A stretch of DNA of 20,975 bases from a virus, in IMG/VR virus record IMGVR_UViG_3300050821_009688, positions 1 to 20,975 of that record; one strand, given 5' to 3'. Shown here piece by piece: positions 1,634-16,160 of the stretch (position 1 is its first letter; each line of letters begins with the position of its first letter). The notes under the pieces were generated by a model, which saw nothing but the letters and a program-made list of their open reading frames with translations, searched no databases and was not told where the DNA came from. The translations under genes and the position numbers were made by a program.

Positions 1634-1647
1634 TATTGATAACTCAA

Positions 1648-3471
1648 ATGAAGATTGCAGTCATAACTCCCTCTCTTCCAGAGCGTGCTCAACTATTGGA
1701 AGAATGTAAAGCATCAGTTATAAACCAAACTCGTCCTGCTGACTTGCACTTAGTGTCAGTAGACAAGAATAGAGTGGGTCTTGTCACCATGCGCAACAAC
1801 ATGGTAGCTTCCCTCCCCCTAGAGTACGACTGGTTGGCTTTCCTCGATGATGACGACATATTTCTTCCTCGTCACCTAGAAATTCTAGCAGCTGTTGCGG
1901 AGGAAACGCAAGCGGATATTATCTACCCTGATTGTGACGTGGAAGGCTTTGTAAAGAATTTCCAACCCAGAAGATTTGATCATAGTGCTCTCCTTCAAGA
2001 CAACTATATCCCGGTCACGGTCCTCATGCGACGTTCTCTCTTTGATAATCTAGGAGGGTTTCGCCACACGGGATTCGTGGAGGATTGGGATCTTTGGAAG
2101 AGAGCTGCTGAACAGAAAGCGAAGTTCGTCTTCGCGCCAGCTACAACCTGGGTCTATCGTCGCCAGCCAGATGGTTTGGTAAACAAGATCTATGAAAAGA
2201 AGGTTAGAGCAGGAGGACCCTTGAGGGTCTCCATCTTCACTCCCACAAACAACACAAGATGGCTTCCGGATCTATATAAATCCATTAAGGATCAGTCATT
2301 TCATGAATGGGTAATTCTCTATAACAATGGTGCTCATCCTCTGGCGATGTTCTCTAGTGACCCCCGCGTCAAGCAGATAGAGGTGGATATAGACAAGGAC
2401 TGGATTGGCCCTCTCAAGGGACAGGCCTGTGATAGGTGCACAGGAGATATTCTTCTAGAAATCGATCATGACGACATGCTCATGCCCAACGCTATAGAAG
2501 AGGTTGTTAAAGCATTCTCTGACCCACAGGTGGGATTCGTTTATTCCAACACAGTACACCTTGGACATGATGTGGAGAAGGGTGTCAAGGGGAAGGTGGC
2601 AAGATTCGATGAGTGTTTCGGCTGGCAATACAGAGAGGTGAAGTTCGAAGATCTAGTTCTCGACGAACACATCTCCTTTGCGCCCACACCAGACTCTATT
2701 TCTAGGATCTGGTATGCTCCGAATCATCTGCGAGCCTTTCGTAAATCTGTCTACAATATGGTTGGTGGCTACAGTAAAGAGATGCGGGTGCTGGATGATC
2801 TGGATCTCATGTGTCGGATGTACATGGTCACTAGGTTTCAGCATATTGACAAGGGTCTCTATGTGTATCGCATCCATGGAGGGAATACTTGGCAGAAACC
2901 GGATGTAAACAGTGAGATCCAGAACAATGTCTATCGCATTTATGACATGTACATAGAAAGTCTTGTGGAAAGATGGGCTGATCTTGAGGGTCTGAGGAAG
3001 ATAGAACTAGGTGGAAGAATGGCGGCCAAGCCCGGTTACGAGACGGCGGATCTCTTGGATGCGGATATCATAACCAATTTGAACGATCCCTGGCCCTTCC
3101 CTGATAGCTCGGTTGGAGTGTTCAGATCATTTGACGTCTTTGAACACCTTATAGATCCAAAGTTTACCATGAAGGAACTCTCCCGCTGCCTGGCACCCGG
3201 AGGTTGGGTGATTTGTCAGGTTCCCAGCACCGACGGAAGAGGAGCGTTCCAGGATCCCACGCATGTTTCATTTTGGAATGAGAATAGTTTTCATTACTAC
3301 ACAAAAGCTGCGAAGGCCAAATACATCGCTCCATATTTTAAGACTCCCGTCAGGTTTCAGGCTCCTCGACTCTATACAACAGAGAAGAATTTTGAGCAGG
3401 TGTGTTGGGTGACGGCTCATCTCATCAACCTGAAGCATGGCTATCGTCCTAGCGGATTGATAGAGATCTGA
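1648..3471 (+). CDS. Two-glycosyltransferase plus methyltransferase fusion protein
   Basis: The protein has 607 residues in three domains. Residues 1-185 form a GT-A family 2 glycosyltransferase with the nucleotide-sugar/metal acidic run DDDD at 67-70 and a late ED motif near 145-147. Residues 191-420 form a second GT2 domain with DHDD at 273-276 and DDLD at 383-386. Residues 450-607 resemble a class I SAM methyltransferase, with a FDVFEHL segment near 495-501, a LAPGG turn at 515-519, and a conserved stretch GRGAFQDPTHVSFWNENSF around 530-548. The usual glycine-rich SAM loop is replaced by LGGR (454-457). A TTG at 1636 would add four residues, but neither start has a clear ribosome site; I prefer ATG 1648 because the beta strand MKIAVITPS begins there. 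The gene follows the fibre stop by 14 nt. The substrate is unknown: a virion protein or host surface glycan is plausible. Confidence 0.85.
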   Translation: MKIAVITPSLPERAQLLEECKASVINQTRPADLHLVSVDKNRVGLVTMRNNMVASLPLEYDWLAFLDDDDIFLPRHLEILAAVAEETQADIIYPDCDVEGFVKNFQPRRFDHSALLQDNYIPVTVLMRRSLFDNLGGFRHTGFVEDWDLWKRAAEQKAKFVFAPATTWVYRRQPDGLVNKIYEKKVRAGGPLRVSIFTPTNNTRWLPDLYKSIKDQSFHEWVILYNNGAHPLAMFSSDPRVKQIEVDIDKDWIGPLKGQACDRCTGDILLEIDHDDMLMPNAIEEVVKAFSDPQVGFVYSNTVHLGHDVEKGVKGKVARFDECFGWQYREVKFEDLVLDEHISFAPTPDSISRIWYAPNHLRAFRKSVYNMVGGYSKEMRVLDDLDLMCRMYMVTRFQHIDKGLYVYRIHGGNTWQKPDVNSEIQNNVYRIYDMYIESLVERWADLEGLRKIELGGRMAAKPGYETADLLDADIITNLNDPWPFPDSSVGVFRSFDVFEHLIDPKFTMKELSRCLAPGGWVICQVPSTDGRGAFQDPTHVSFWNENSFHYYTKAAKAKYIAPYFKTPVRFQAPRLYTTEKNFEQVCWVTAHLINLKHGYRPSGLIEI

Positions 3472-8678: not shown

Positions 8679-9374
8679 ATGGGCAGCACTACAACCGCTG
8701 GAGCAGGATATCTTTACAGACCGGGTGCTAGTCCCCAGACTAACGCGGTCTTAAGCACTCGCTTCCGTGTATTTACCCATGCTGTTGATAATGGTAAGTT
8801 CACGAAGCTTGGAGTGACTTCAGCTTTCAATATTCAGGAACAGCGCAATGTTGAAGCTGTCCGTGGCCTTGGCTTTGGTGATATCGTGGCAGAGCTTGTG
8901 CCCGGTGTTACCACTCCGATGACACTCACCATTAACCGCACTGCTCTCTATCTTGCCAATATCATGCAGATGTTGGGTTACAAGGCAGGAGTTAGCGGTC
9001 TGGTCCGTTCATTGAAGCATCAGAAGTGGCCGTTCGATATCAAGACTGAGATTGCATTCTCTGAGTTGGTGTCCTCTTTCGCTTCTAATGATGTCGATGC
9101 AACCGTGGCAACTTATACCAACAATGAGGGTGGTCTCAATAACTACGGTAATAACATTCCAATCTACGCAGTAGCTACAGTGTATGAAGGATGTTGGATG
9201 GAGTCATATGCATCTAACTTCCAGGTTGAACAGGCGGCTGTAACTGAGGACGCCAGCGTCATTGTAACCGACGTGTTCGATTGCTCTGGTTCGGTGTATG
9301 GAGAGTTCATTGACTCAGGCTTGAACAGCGGGGATGTAACTGGCAGGAGCTTGCTGTTCTCACTGAATAGTTAA
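8679..9374 (+). CDS. Tail tube protein
   Basis: The protein has 231 residues and follows the sheath region, as expected for the inner tube subunit of a contractile tail (T4 gp19 position). It is a beta-rich protein with a long disordered Gly/Ser/Thr start, a V.AVRG/GFGDIVAE region near residues 58-73, a helix around 87-110, and a late strand series CWMESYASNF followed by AAVTEDASVIVTDVF, the kind of closing strand pair seen in tube proteins of large myoviruses. ATG 8679 has a TAAGGAGA ribosome site six bases upstream. A strong terminator lies 27 nt after the stop. Family assignment rests on context plus the C-terminal strand pattern. Confidence 0.75.
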   Translation: MGSTTTAGAGYLYRPGASPQTNAVLSTRFRVFTHAVDNGKFTKLGVTSAFNIQEQRNVEAVRGLGFGDIVAELVPGVTTPMTLTINRTALYLANIMQMLGYKAGVSGLVRSLKHQKWPFDIKTEIAFSELVSSFASNDVDATVATYTNNEGGLNNYGNNIPIYAVATVYEGCWMESYASNFQVEQAAVTEDASVIVTDVFDCSGSVYGEFIDSGLNSGDVTGRSLLFSLNS

Positions 9375-9399: not shown

Positions 9400-9439
9400 A
9401 AGCGAGGAAGAAACTTGATACCTTCCTCGCTTTTCTTTT
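9400..9439 (+). terminator. Rho-independent terminator after the tail tube gene
   Basis: AGCGAGGAAG (9401-9410) pairs with CTTCCTCGCT (9422-9431) around an 11-base loop, followed by TTTTCTTTT. An A-T pair outside the stem extends it. It isolates the tube transcript from the island to its right. Confidence 0.85.
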
Positions 9440-9440
9440 G

Positions 9441-9623
9441 ATGATAAGATATCAGGCCCAGACTACCAACCACGAGCGGCAAGTACAGTTAGACATTATT
9501 TCTAGAGAACATTATTGGGCGTATCTTGTATGGAAGTCCATCGTAGAGGACCTGACCAACTGTGAGCACACCCTCAAAGATGCACTAGAAGAGATAAAGA
9601 CCCTGAGATCTAAACTTTCCTGA
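9441..9623 (+). CDS. Small helical protein, hypothetical
   Basis: This is a 60-residue frame starting at ATG 9441. The product is polar with a helical C-terminal half (EDLTNCEHTLKDALEEIKTL) that could form a coiled coil, and an aromatic patch WAYLVW near the middle. No ribosome site is present; the start lies at the T-tract of the preceding terminator. A promoter inside or before the terminator, or a leaderless start, would be needed. Its last 14 nt overlap the 3' end of the convergent minus-strand gene. The amino-acid composition looks protein-like, but expression is doubtful. Confidence 0.4.
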   Translation: MIRYQAQTTNHERQVQLDIISREHYWAYLVWKSIVEDLTNCEHTLKDALEEIKTLRSKLS

Positions 9624-9825
9624 GTTCATCTTTTCCCAGTTGGGTGATGCTGTAAACACCAAAACTAATCTTCTCTACGAAACCCTTTGCCAACATCCGA
9701 GGCATAGGTCCTCGCCTATCGAAGGCTTTGTATATTTCTTCGTCGATTTCCGAAGCATGCGCCTCTGTTTTTGTACTCAGGAAGATTAACAACTTGTGAC
9801 TCGAAGAATCTCGCCGAATGCTCAT
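9610..9825 (-). CDS. Winged-helix DNA-binding protein (candidate regulator)
   Basis: The product has 71 residues. The pattern matches a minimal winged helix: helix 1 (HKLLIFLSTK, 10-19), helix 2 (ASEIDEEIYKAF, 24-35), a Pro-containing turn into a recognition helix (PMPRMLAKGFVEKI, 40-53), then the wing GVYSITQLGKDELRK (56-70). This last part resembles the 'Y.IT..G...L' ending of MarR/PadR-type domains. It is the only convincing minus-strand gene here. Its ATG (complement of 9823-9825) lies inside the left arm of a perfect 9-bp dyad, suggesting autoregulation. No ribosome site is obvious, so the start is uncertain. It runs towards the small gene ending at 9623. Confidence 0.6.
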   Translation of the reverse strand: MSIRRDSSSHKLLIFLSTKTEAHASEIDEEIYKAFDRRGPMPRMLAKGFVEKISFGVYSITQLGKDELRKV

Positions 9826-9851
9826 ATCATGTTCTACGCAACTGATATGAG
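9821..9851. promoter_or_regulatory. Perfect 9-bp dyad, candidate operator
   Basis: CTCATATCA (9821-9829) and TGATATGAG (9843-9851) are exact reverse complements separated by 13 bp. The arm centres are 22 bp apart, about two helical turns, which suits a dimeric repressor. The dyad covers the start codon of the minus-strand winged-helix gene and lies 35 bp before the start of the secreted-protein gene at 9887. No T-tract follows on either side, which argues against a terminator. Confidence 0.55.
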
Positions 9852-9886
9852 AAACGACTACAGATTTCCATAAATAGGAGGAGAAA

Positions 9887-10300
9887 ATGCGTAAATTTAT
9901 CTTGCTGTGCTCATTGTTGTTCTCTGCGGCCTTTGCCCAAGCACAGACTCAGGCTCTCTGGGGGTACGACTGGTCTAGACTTTCGACGACGGGTCAGGAT
10001 GGTCCCTATCTGAATTTATTTTTTGAAGGTAATCTACCTCCAGTCGCCTACGATATTTCTTGGACCGTTTCTGGTACTGCTCCTTCTGTATGCACGTTCC
10101 GCATTGAAGGTTCGGATGATGCCACCAATTGGACAGGTTTAGATGCCACTGCCCCCGCTGTGGACTCTGAAACCTGCACCACGTCCAATATCCAATTTGT
10201 TGTCAATAAACCAACCAGATACATCCGTGTAAATATTGTTACTTACACCGCAGGAGACTCCACAACTTCAGTTATCTTCCATTACACAAGAGGGCTGTAA
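9887..10300 (+). CDS. Secreted beta-sandwich protein with Sec signal peptide
   Basis: The protein has 137 residues. The start MRKFILLCSLLFSAAFAQAQ is a textbook signal peptide: basic n-region, hydrophobic core, and an Ala-rich cleavage zone with likely cleavage after AFA (17) or AQA (19). Cys8 is not in a proper lipobox, so lipidation is unlikely. The mature part has about 115 residues with F.IEGSDDATNW and RYIRVNIV segments like discoidin-type beta-sandwiches, and two cysteines (69 and 97) that could form a disulfide in the periplasm. A very strong ribosome site (AGGAGGAG at 9876-9883) precedes ATG 9887. A signal peptide is odd for a virion protein. Exclusion of other phages or modification of the envelope are possible roles, but none is shown. 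Confidence 0.75.
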   Translation: MRKFILLCSLLFSAAFAQAQTQALWGYDWSRLSTTGQDGPYLNLFFEGNLPPVAYDISWTVSGTAPSVCTFRIEGSDDATNWTGLDATAPAVDSETCTTSNIQFVVNKPTRYIRVNIVTYTAGDSTTSVIFHYTRGL

Positions 10301-10695
10301 TGAAGCATCGTCTTCTACGTCCTAAGTCAGCACTTCGTTCGTACGGACCTCTCCCTCGTGGAGTAGGTGGTGCTCCTTTGGGTGTGGAGGACACTTCACC
10401 TTTAGTCAACGACTCCCCTGAGTATCCGGGAGAAGCTGGAAAGGGTTATGACAATCCCCTAGCAGCGAAGGGAACTGAGTCTCCTTTGAATGAAAACTTT
10501 GAGGAGGGTATCCCAAGTTCAAAGTTGAGTGCTGTAGAAATACATGAGACTCCTACCATGCTTCCTCCTAGGAATGATTTACGCAGACATATAGATGAGG
10601 ATGAAGTGGAAGAGGTTGAAGAAGGGCCTGTAATGATGAGGAGACTCTCTCGTCTTATGGCTGGACTATCTGTAGCCCGGATAGAAACCAACTAA
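10300..10695 (+). CDS. Small disordered protein upstream of the protease, possible prohead-core component
   Basis: The protein has 131 residues. The start overlaps the preceding stop as TAATG, so translation is coupled to the secreted-protein gene. The N-terminal 20 residues are basic (KHRLLRPKSALR), the middle is Pro/Gly/Ser-rich, and the tail holds an acidic run DEDEVEEVEEGP followed by a basic amphipathic end (MMRRLSRLMAGLSVARIE). The bipolar charge and the position directly before the protease recall T4 gp67/gp68, small core proteins that are processed during head maturation. That parallel is positional only. I recognise no domain. Confidence 0.65.
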   Translation: MKHRLLRPKSALRSYGPLPRGVGGAPLGVEDTSPLVNDSPEYPGEAGKGYDNPLAAKGTESPLNENFEEGIPSSKLSAVEIHETPTMLPPRNDLRRHIDEDEVEEVEEGPVMMRRLSRLMAGLSVARIETN

Positions 10696-10717
10696 GAGAC
10701 CCTCTATAGGAACAAAA

Positions 10718-11614
10718 ATGTCTATCATAAAGAACGCGACAGCTACACTGGCTCACCCGACAGTCTCCATAGATGACTGGGGGAAGATGTATGCTCATCG
10801 TGCGTTTGGTCACAAGTCAGCTTCCATGGGAAAGTCTGCTGCTATCAAGAAGGTTGCGGACTCATCTCAGTATCTCCTATCTCACTGCACTATTATGAGC
10901 AGTGTAATGACTGAGGAAGACCCCTTTGACTATCTCATCAAGCCAGAGTGCAGTCATCTTGTAAATAACAACGACGACGCGTGGAGCAACGAAGTCCTTA
11001 AGATTTCCCATAAGTCATTTGTAGGTGCTTTCAATTTTCTAGAGCATTTTCAAAACTCCAAGGCAGCCAAGGGACATATTCTAGATGCTATCTTGCGCAA
11101 GGTGTCCATAGCTCCTCCTGATGTGTGGGTTTACTTCTGCGATATCTTGGTAGCTACGGAGATGGTGCACGAGAAGTTGATCAGTGATATCCGTACTGAG
11201 AAAGTCAAGTACATGTCAATGGGATGTGTGACAGATCTAGTTATCTGTTCCTTCTGTGGAGCACGTGTAACTGACGCCAATACTTATTGTCAACATCTGA
11301 ATTTCCAGAAGGGTATGTTCATGCCAGACGAGGATGGTATTCCTCGTCGTATCGCAGAGCTATGTGGACATCAATCTCTTCCTGGCGCTGGCGTCAAGTT
11401 TATTGAAGCCAGTTGGGTAGAGACCCCGGCCTTTCCCGGTGCAGAGATGCGTGGGATCGTGGCTGAGAATTGGGTGGGACCAAAAACTAAGTTTACCCAC
11501 TCAGTAGCTGCAGGATACAAGAAAGTCGCTTCTGAACAAAATAGCGACTCTCTAACTCTTAATACGAACGCGGCATTAGAAGCGAACATACACTGGAGAT
11601 TACGCAATGCGTAA
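10718..11614 (+). CDS. Prohead maturation protease with Cys-rich insert
   Basis: The protein has 298 residues. Candidate catalytic residues of the herpes/HK97/T4 gp21-type protease fold are visible: His110 in the NFLEHFQ segment and Ser167 in KYMSMGC, with the DILVATEMVH helix (142-151) between. The closing signature GVKFIEASWVETPAFPGA (225-242) is typical of prohead proteases of large myoviruses. Between them, Cys170, Cys177, Cys180 and Cys191, plus His193, form a probable zinc site. The enzyme should cut scaffold and capsid N-termini during head maturation. ATG 10718 has an ATAGGAAC site. The gene overlaps the scaffold start by eight bases, consistent with coupled expression. The C-terminal tail (from about 262) is polar and may be a self-cleavage segment. 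Confidence 0.88.
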   Translation: MSIIKNATATLAHPTVSIDDWGKMYAHRAFGHKSASMGKSAAIKKVADSSQYLLSHCTIMSSVMTEEDPFDYLIKPECSHLVNNNDDAWSNEVLKISHKSFVGAFNFLEHFQNSKAAKGHILDAILRKVSIAPPDVWVYFCDILVATEMVHEKLISDIRTEKVKYMSMGCVTDLVICSFCGARVTDANTYCQHLNFQKGMFMPDEDGIPRRIAELCGHQSLPGAGVKFIEASWVETPAFPGAEMRGIVAENWVGPKTKFTHSVAAGYKKVASEQNSDSLTLNTNAALEANIHWRLRNA

Positions 11615-13682: not shown

Positions 13683-14240
13683 CCTCATAGGGAGACAATA
13701 TGAAATACGAGGATCTTAGAAGCACTATCCGCACTGGGGACTTACTTGCCTGTCATGGTAGGGAGTGGACTTCAGATATCATTGAGTTCTTTACAGGAAA
13801 GAGTGACAAGACTAGCTGGAGTCATATGGCCCTATTTTACTGGAGTGGGGATGGACTTTGGATTGCTCAGGAGTATGAGGGAGTGGGTTTCGGTTGTTAT
13901 CCCGCTTCACAACTTATAGCTTCCTTCATTAAGGAAAAGAGCACATGCTATCTAGCTGCAGCTCCCGCACAGATAACTGATAACTCTCCCAAGATACTAA
14001 ACTTCATTCAGACCTATAGAGTCACTCCTCATTTGAAGCCCTACGGGTATGGTTCACTTATAAGAATTCTCCTAGATGACAAGACCGACCCTGATAGTGT
14101 ACAAGCAGTCTGCAGTATCTTTGACCAACAATCTTGGGAAGCTTGCGGCTATAAATTCAATAGGTTATTTGCCCCGGAAGACTTCAAGTCTGTAGTTACC
14201 AATATAGTAGAGATTGATTGAAATCTCCTCATAGGGATAC
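13682..14240 (+). repeat. Short direct repeat flanking the hydrolase gene
   Basis: TCCTCATAGGGAGAC at 13682-13696 and TCCTCATAGGGATAC at 14226-14240 differ at one base. The left copy includes the hydrolase ribosome site; the right copy starts five bases after its stop. The gene is thus bracketed by a 15-bp repeat, which may be a scar of insertion or chance reuse of a leader sequence. Confidence 0.5.
13700..14221 (+). CDS. Permuted NlpC/P60 (YiiX-type) papain-like hydrolase
   Basis: The protein has 173 residues. The order of motifs is the permuted papain fold: a GDLLACHG start (13-20), then a catalytic-type His42 in the SHMALF strand, an acidic Glu58 or Glu60 in QEYEG, and a late Cys149 in WEACGYKF that would be the nucleophile. 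The family hydrolyses amide or ester bonds in cell-wall peptides or lipids. There is no signal peptide, so it would act in the cytoplasm, in the virion, or after lysis begins. The ribosome site AGGGAGAC lies just upstream, after the scaffold terminator. It separates scaffold from capsid genes, an unusual place for a hydrolase, and its A+T-rich codons differ from those of the capsid gene. Peptidase versus acyl-transferase activity cannot be told from sequence alone. Confidence 0.7.
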   Translation: MKYEDLRSTIRTGDLLACHGREWTSDIIEFFTGKSDKTSWSHMALFYWSGDGLWIAQEYEGVGFGCYPASQLIASFIKEKSTCYLAAAPAQITDNSPKILNFIQTYRVTPHLKPYGYGSLIRILLDDKTDPDSVQAVCSIFDQQSWEACGYKFNRLFAPEDFKSVVTNIVEID

Positions 14241-16128: not shown

Positions 16129-16160
16129 ACAACCCCCTCTTCGGAGGGGGTTGTTATTTT
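16129..16160 (+). terminator. Strong UUCG-loop terminator after the capsid gene
   Basis: ACAACCCCCTC (16129-16139) pairs perfectly with GAGGGGGTTGT (16144-16154) around a TTCG tetraloop, followed by TATTTT. It is the most stable terminator in the window. Confidence 0.93.

Follow-up and report, generated by a model that had tools for sequence, protein, structure and literature searches.

Genes and features at the locus

The window analysed here is an entire viral record of 20,975 bases, in which the following features were located between the tail-tube gene and the first of the head genes:

8679-9374, plus strand: tube-like virion protein, the left border of a variable junction, with homologues in 63 viral loci and in Tunturi_5
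9400-9432, plus strand: terminator-like hairpin 3' of the tube gene, with an 11-bp perfect stem (fold z -3.8), followed by a T-rich tract
9438-9623, plus strand: 61-aa ORF, doubtful as a gene, with a TTG or ATG start, no Shine-Dalgarno sequence, codon z 1.3 and no homologue in relatives
9610-9825, minus strand: 71-aa ORF, putative winged-helix DNA-binding protein (Pfam Mrr_N, residues 47-69, E 0.0027, below the gathering cutoff)
9821-9851, no strand assigned: perfect 9-bp dyad, CTCATATCA-13 bp-TGATATGAG, with 22 bp between the centres of its arms, lying over the minus-strand start codon
9887-10300, plus strand: 137-aa beta-rich protein, likely exported, with a signal peptide, codon z 4.0 and the Shine-Dalgarno sequence AGGAGG
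10300-10695, plus strand: 131-aa gene that opens the head block, with homologues in 35 loci; its start and the stop of the exported-protein gene overlap by 1 nt

The genes of the window have their matches in the structural block carried by Tunturiibacter phage Tunturi_5 (PP885688), a 309-kb myovirus of Acidobacteriota (PMC11924767). Both share the gene order sheath, tube-like protein, head maturation protease and major head protein, with 62% identity for the tube and 59% for the protease. We take the window to come from a soil phage related to this large virus of Acidobacteriota, and infer its host likewise. Since it is the structural block of Tunturi_5 that the window genes match, phages of this group were the proper comparison. 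With the tube protein as query, 63 viral loci were retrieved (61-79% identity), and Tunturi_5 was compared as well.

An earlier, sequence-only reading of this DNA had described a regulatory island between a tube terminator and the head genes, made up of a short ORF, a minus-strand winged-helix protein, a divergent secreted protein and a dyad, and this layout held up in part. At the proposed terminator there is indeed a strong terminator-like hairpin; by a loose criterion, 27 of the 34 distinct sequences have a comparable one 3' of the tube gene, versus 28% of random pieces. The head genes downstream were recognised by PHROG matches to a head maturation protease (7e-13) and a major head protein (2e-43). 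The dyad is perfect as described, with its 9-bp arms at the stated spacing, over the regulator start and 5' of the divergent gene. The short ORF, which begins at the foot of the terminator hairpin, exists as a frame, but its codon usage and the missing Shine-Dalgarno sequence make it weak as a gene.

The tube-head junction is a site of accessory insertions

From the tube stop codon to the next head-block gene, the interval measures 925 nt in the window, versus 87 nt in the closest relatives (L003 and L004), -1 to about 90 nt across many relatives, and 45 nt in Tunturi_5, which lacks an insertion. None of the three island ORFs (the 61-aa ORF, the 71-aa ORF and the exported protein) was found at the junction in the 63 related loci or in Tunturi_5, where the tube gene is conserved. 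Other relatives carry extras of their own at this place: (i) 560-1019 nt in L005, L007, L009 and L010, holding an ORF like a GIY-YIG nuclease or a remnant of one (1018-1019 nt in L005 and L007), the GIY-YIG call for the L005 ORF being a sequence pattern and its sole Pfam match DUF7487, (ii) 1702 nt with a DUF723 protein in L028, (iii) 326 nt with a tRNA-Gln in L037, (iv) 747 nt with a tRNA-Pro in L042 and near-copies among L041-L047, and (v) 1.2-3.5 kb with minus-strand cassettes encoding DUF932-type proteins in L056-L060 and L064, the L057 protein being the member that was tested and matched DUF932. In L058, a lipoprotein-like ORF also sits 3' of the tube terminator. No direct repeats of at least 8 bp were detected at the edges of the insertion.

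Because unrelated extras occupy the same junction across the relatives, we regard it as an accessory site, at which minus-strand genes are not unusual. As judged by this comparison, the island region is a lineage-specific accessory insertion at a variable tube-head junction, real and ordinary in kind. Absence of the minus-strand frame and the dyad from related phages had been named in advance as grounds for rejecting the island; both are literally absent, yet an accessory insertion of recent date would be expected to be missing there, and this finding therefore settles nothing.

Within the subgroup of relatives with minus-strand junction cassettes, these lie at 8892-10946 in L056, 8743-10707 in L057, 5604-7574 in L058, 9389-10955 in L060 and 796-1542 in L064.

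The minus-strand frame

The Mrr_N match of the 71-aa frame was compared with Pfam controls, in which the best value among ten spurious antisense ORFs was 0.22, while three hand-scrambled sequences of the same length gave no match. Weaker matches to regulators were also seen (PHROG, 0.29; NCBIfam ArnR, 0.15), and a single-sequence structure model was of low confidence, with a pLDDT of 60 and no fold match. No Shine-Dalgarno sequence precedes the frame, whereas at least four matching bases precede 11 of the 15 other genes. Its codon z is 0.3, by statistics for which the late structural genes were the training set and whose power is low over a length of 71 codons, and an ORF of at least 71 aa would arise by chance within the 447-bp stretch with P = 0.16. 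No homologue of the protein was found in IMG/VR, GTDB genomes, phages or plasmids, and none appeared in the 29 related records searched whole, which, as a search lacking a positive control, is weak evidence.

Taken alone, the codon usage, the lack of a Shine-Dalgarno sequence and of homologues, and the chance expectation for such an ORF would fit a frame that is not a gene, with the dyad as a chance palindrome and the exported-protein gene as the only functional addition. The expectation of 1.8 perfect dyads by chance in the window (see below) points the same way. Against it stand the winged-helix match with its clean controls and the position of the dyad exactly within the divergent gap (P about 0.01), and we consider this explanation somewhat unlikely. 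We retain the reading that the frame probably encodes a small winged-helix protein, its fold and expression being predicted from sequence, and regard the gene itself as moderately supported. The winged-helix assignment made earlier thus survives in its features, while the sub-cutoff match and the gene statistics leave it short of secure.

The dyad in the divergent gap

The start codon of the minus-strand ORF (9823-9825) falls within the left arm of the dyad, and 35 nt separate the end of the dyad from the ATG of the divergent ORF (9887). Four perfect dyads (arms of at least 9 bp, spacer 3-30) occur in the window, versus 1.8 expected under a first-order Markov model; of the remaining three, those at 9400-9432 and 16129-16154 are terminator-like hairpins. 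For the divergent gap alone, the chance of such a perfect dyad is 0.6-1.4%, a local P that is suggestive and not conclusive, since the site had been noticed before being tested. The dyad is unique in the window, with no second copy of an arm outside it there, and the exact full dyad was found nowhere else in IMG/VR. A spacing of 22 bp between arm centres is wide for one small winged-helix dimer. Among the divergent spacers of the relatives' minus-strand cassettes, an inverted repeat is present in L056, and none in L057 and L064, so that no general rule holds for such cassettes.

The dyad might alternatively act as RNA. The RNA of the minus strand forms a stem that takes in the ATG, in its 3' arm (-13.2 kcal/mol; z -3.2, versus -1.3 for the plus strand), and such a hairpin would bury the start codon of the 71-aa frame on minus-strand transcripts started upstream; translation of the frame would then require a transcript whose own start lies within the hairpin. 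T4 soc, e and I-TevI, whose ribosome-binding sites are hidden by hairpins, provide precedents (PMC2988022), but the T4 hairpins hide a Shine-Dalgarno sequence, which is missing here, and no internal promoter was recognised; we hold this explanation to be unlikely.

The exported-protein gene and its link to the head block

The divergent ORF has AGGAGG five bases 5' of its ATG and a codon usage resembling that of the other genes, and the N-terminus of its product is hydrophobic and signal-peptide-like, ending in AQA-Q, all in agreement with the secreted protein first proposed. On these grounds, 9887-10300 is a well-supported gene whose product is likely exported. Its similarity to Pfam F5_F8_type_C (galactose-binding-like) is weak (E 2.7e-5; 24.7 bits, below the curated cutoff of 28.2). 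A match to tfb1 among PDB sequences (E 1.5e-4) was given no weight, and a single-sequence structure model was all beta at low confidence, its fold matches not being used. Searches for relatives of the protein yielded none that was convincing, with two very weak matches among 29 related records.

The stop codon of this gene and the ATG of the 131-aa head-block gene share 1 nt (TAATG, 10298-10302), and no terminator-like site lies 3' of the exported-protein gene by the predictor's criterion. In many related phages, relatives of the 131-aa gene occupy the place between tube and protease. Since the TAATG overlap is with a head-block gene conserved in relatives, the exported protein and the head block are probably translated together, and the exported-protein gene is probably a late, head-linked gene and not an independent unit.

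The head-block gene 3' of the tube varies in length among relatives, from 131 to about 2000 aa. In the window, positions 10691-10720, where the 131-aa gene ends and the protease gene has yet to begin, are 87% conserved with L005, L007 and L009 and may contain a regulatory element. HNH-like ORFs, called by pattern with no Pfam match, lie just before the start of the head protease gene or are fused to it in L005 (12045-13034), L007 (10144-11133) and L073 (3412-4146).

As for promoters, (i) no sigma-70-like site was recognised in the divergent gap, (ii) motif discovery in a 187-kb relative plus the window found none, the candidate words CAGTATT and CTGACA giving no consistent promoter, and (iii) the T4-type late promoter TATAAATA is absent upstream of the genes. 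With no promoter recognised in the gap and no family-wide motif, expression of the island independently or in a lysogen is unsupported. Ten related records, most of them fragments, were also searched for a tyrosine integrase, and none was found, so that lysogenic expression is again without support. The sequence-only reading, of a moron that represses itself and is expressed independently of the late genes, would suit the divergent layout, the dyad over the start codon and the upstream terminator, but is very improbable given the overlap with the head block, the failure to recognise a promoter and the negative integrase search in those ten records. What stands of the moron is the lineage-specific insertion, with ORFs missing in relatives and other extras at the junction; its self-contained character was not confirmed, and its independent expression is unsupported.

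A proposed explanation

The dyad, the variable junction, the absence of the island from relatives and the stop/start overlap are observed directly, and the explanation that we favour, with moderate confidence, is that 9440-10300 is an accessory cassette in a Tunturi_5-like myovirus, consisting of a late exported-protein gene, a winged-helix frame and a dyad serving as control site. The cassette would have been inserted where the tail-tube gene gives way to the head genes, at the variable junction. Its exported protein, joined to the head block by the stop/start overlap, would most likely be made late, and the dyad, placed in the divergent gap over the minus-strand start codon, would most likely be the control site for the 71-aa frame. 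That the 71-aa protein itself binds the dyad as its operator, and so regulates its own gene, is possible, and we propose it only tentatively; control by the RNA hairpin described above would be the other, somewhat less likely, form. Considerably more would be asked of a self-controlled accessory switch in a jumbo-phage lineage, in which the putative 71-aa regulator, acting via the single dyad, would set its own expression and that of the exported protein and tune late head-gene expression; this we regard as quite improbable.

Known systems resemble the cassette in part. Like phage morons, it comprises lineage-specific genes 3' of a terminator, between conserved virion genes and missing in relatives; a classical moron, however, has its own promoter and terminator, whereas neither was recognised for the cassette and the exported-protein gene overlaps a head-block gene. 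T4 segD is a minus-strand gene between head genes 23 and 24 in the late region (PMC2988022). With segD and the insertions of free-standing homing endonucleases the cassette shares minus-strand placement in a late region, and relatives carry nuclease-like ORFs at the same junction, but the 71-aa frame is not a nuclease. The structural block of Tunturi_5 has the same gene order and differs in having no insertion between tube and next gene. Small autoregulated winged-helix repressors with divergent targets likewise show divergent genes and a dyad at the regulator start, and membership of that family would here be putative.

In Tunturi_5-like phages, the junction is insertion-prone, with exported proteins, minus-strand cassettes, tRNAs and nuclease-like genes replacing one another, and variation of this sort, by a small accessory cassette lodged between tail and head genes, is familiar among phages. 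If the regulator does work on the dyad, the cassette would show on a very small scale how accessory DNA can carry its own control with it into a late operon.

Two further genes of the window may be mentioned. At 1636-3471 lies the gene of a 611-aa protein that combines a glycosyltransferase family 2 and a methyltransferase domain, with no match in the related loci. At 13700-14221, between a scaffold-like gene and the next head gene, a 173-aa ORF gave no match by tblastn in the related loci or in Pfam and is likely, by this pattern of occurrence, another accessory insertion; its N-terminal pattern is similar to that of NlpC/YiiX-type peptidases.
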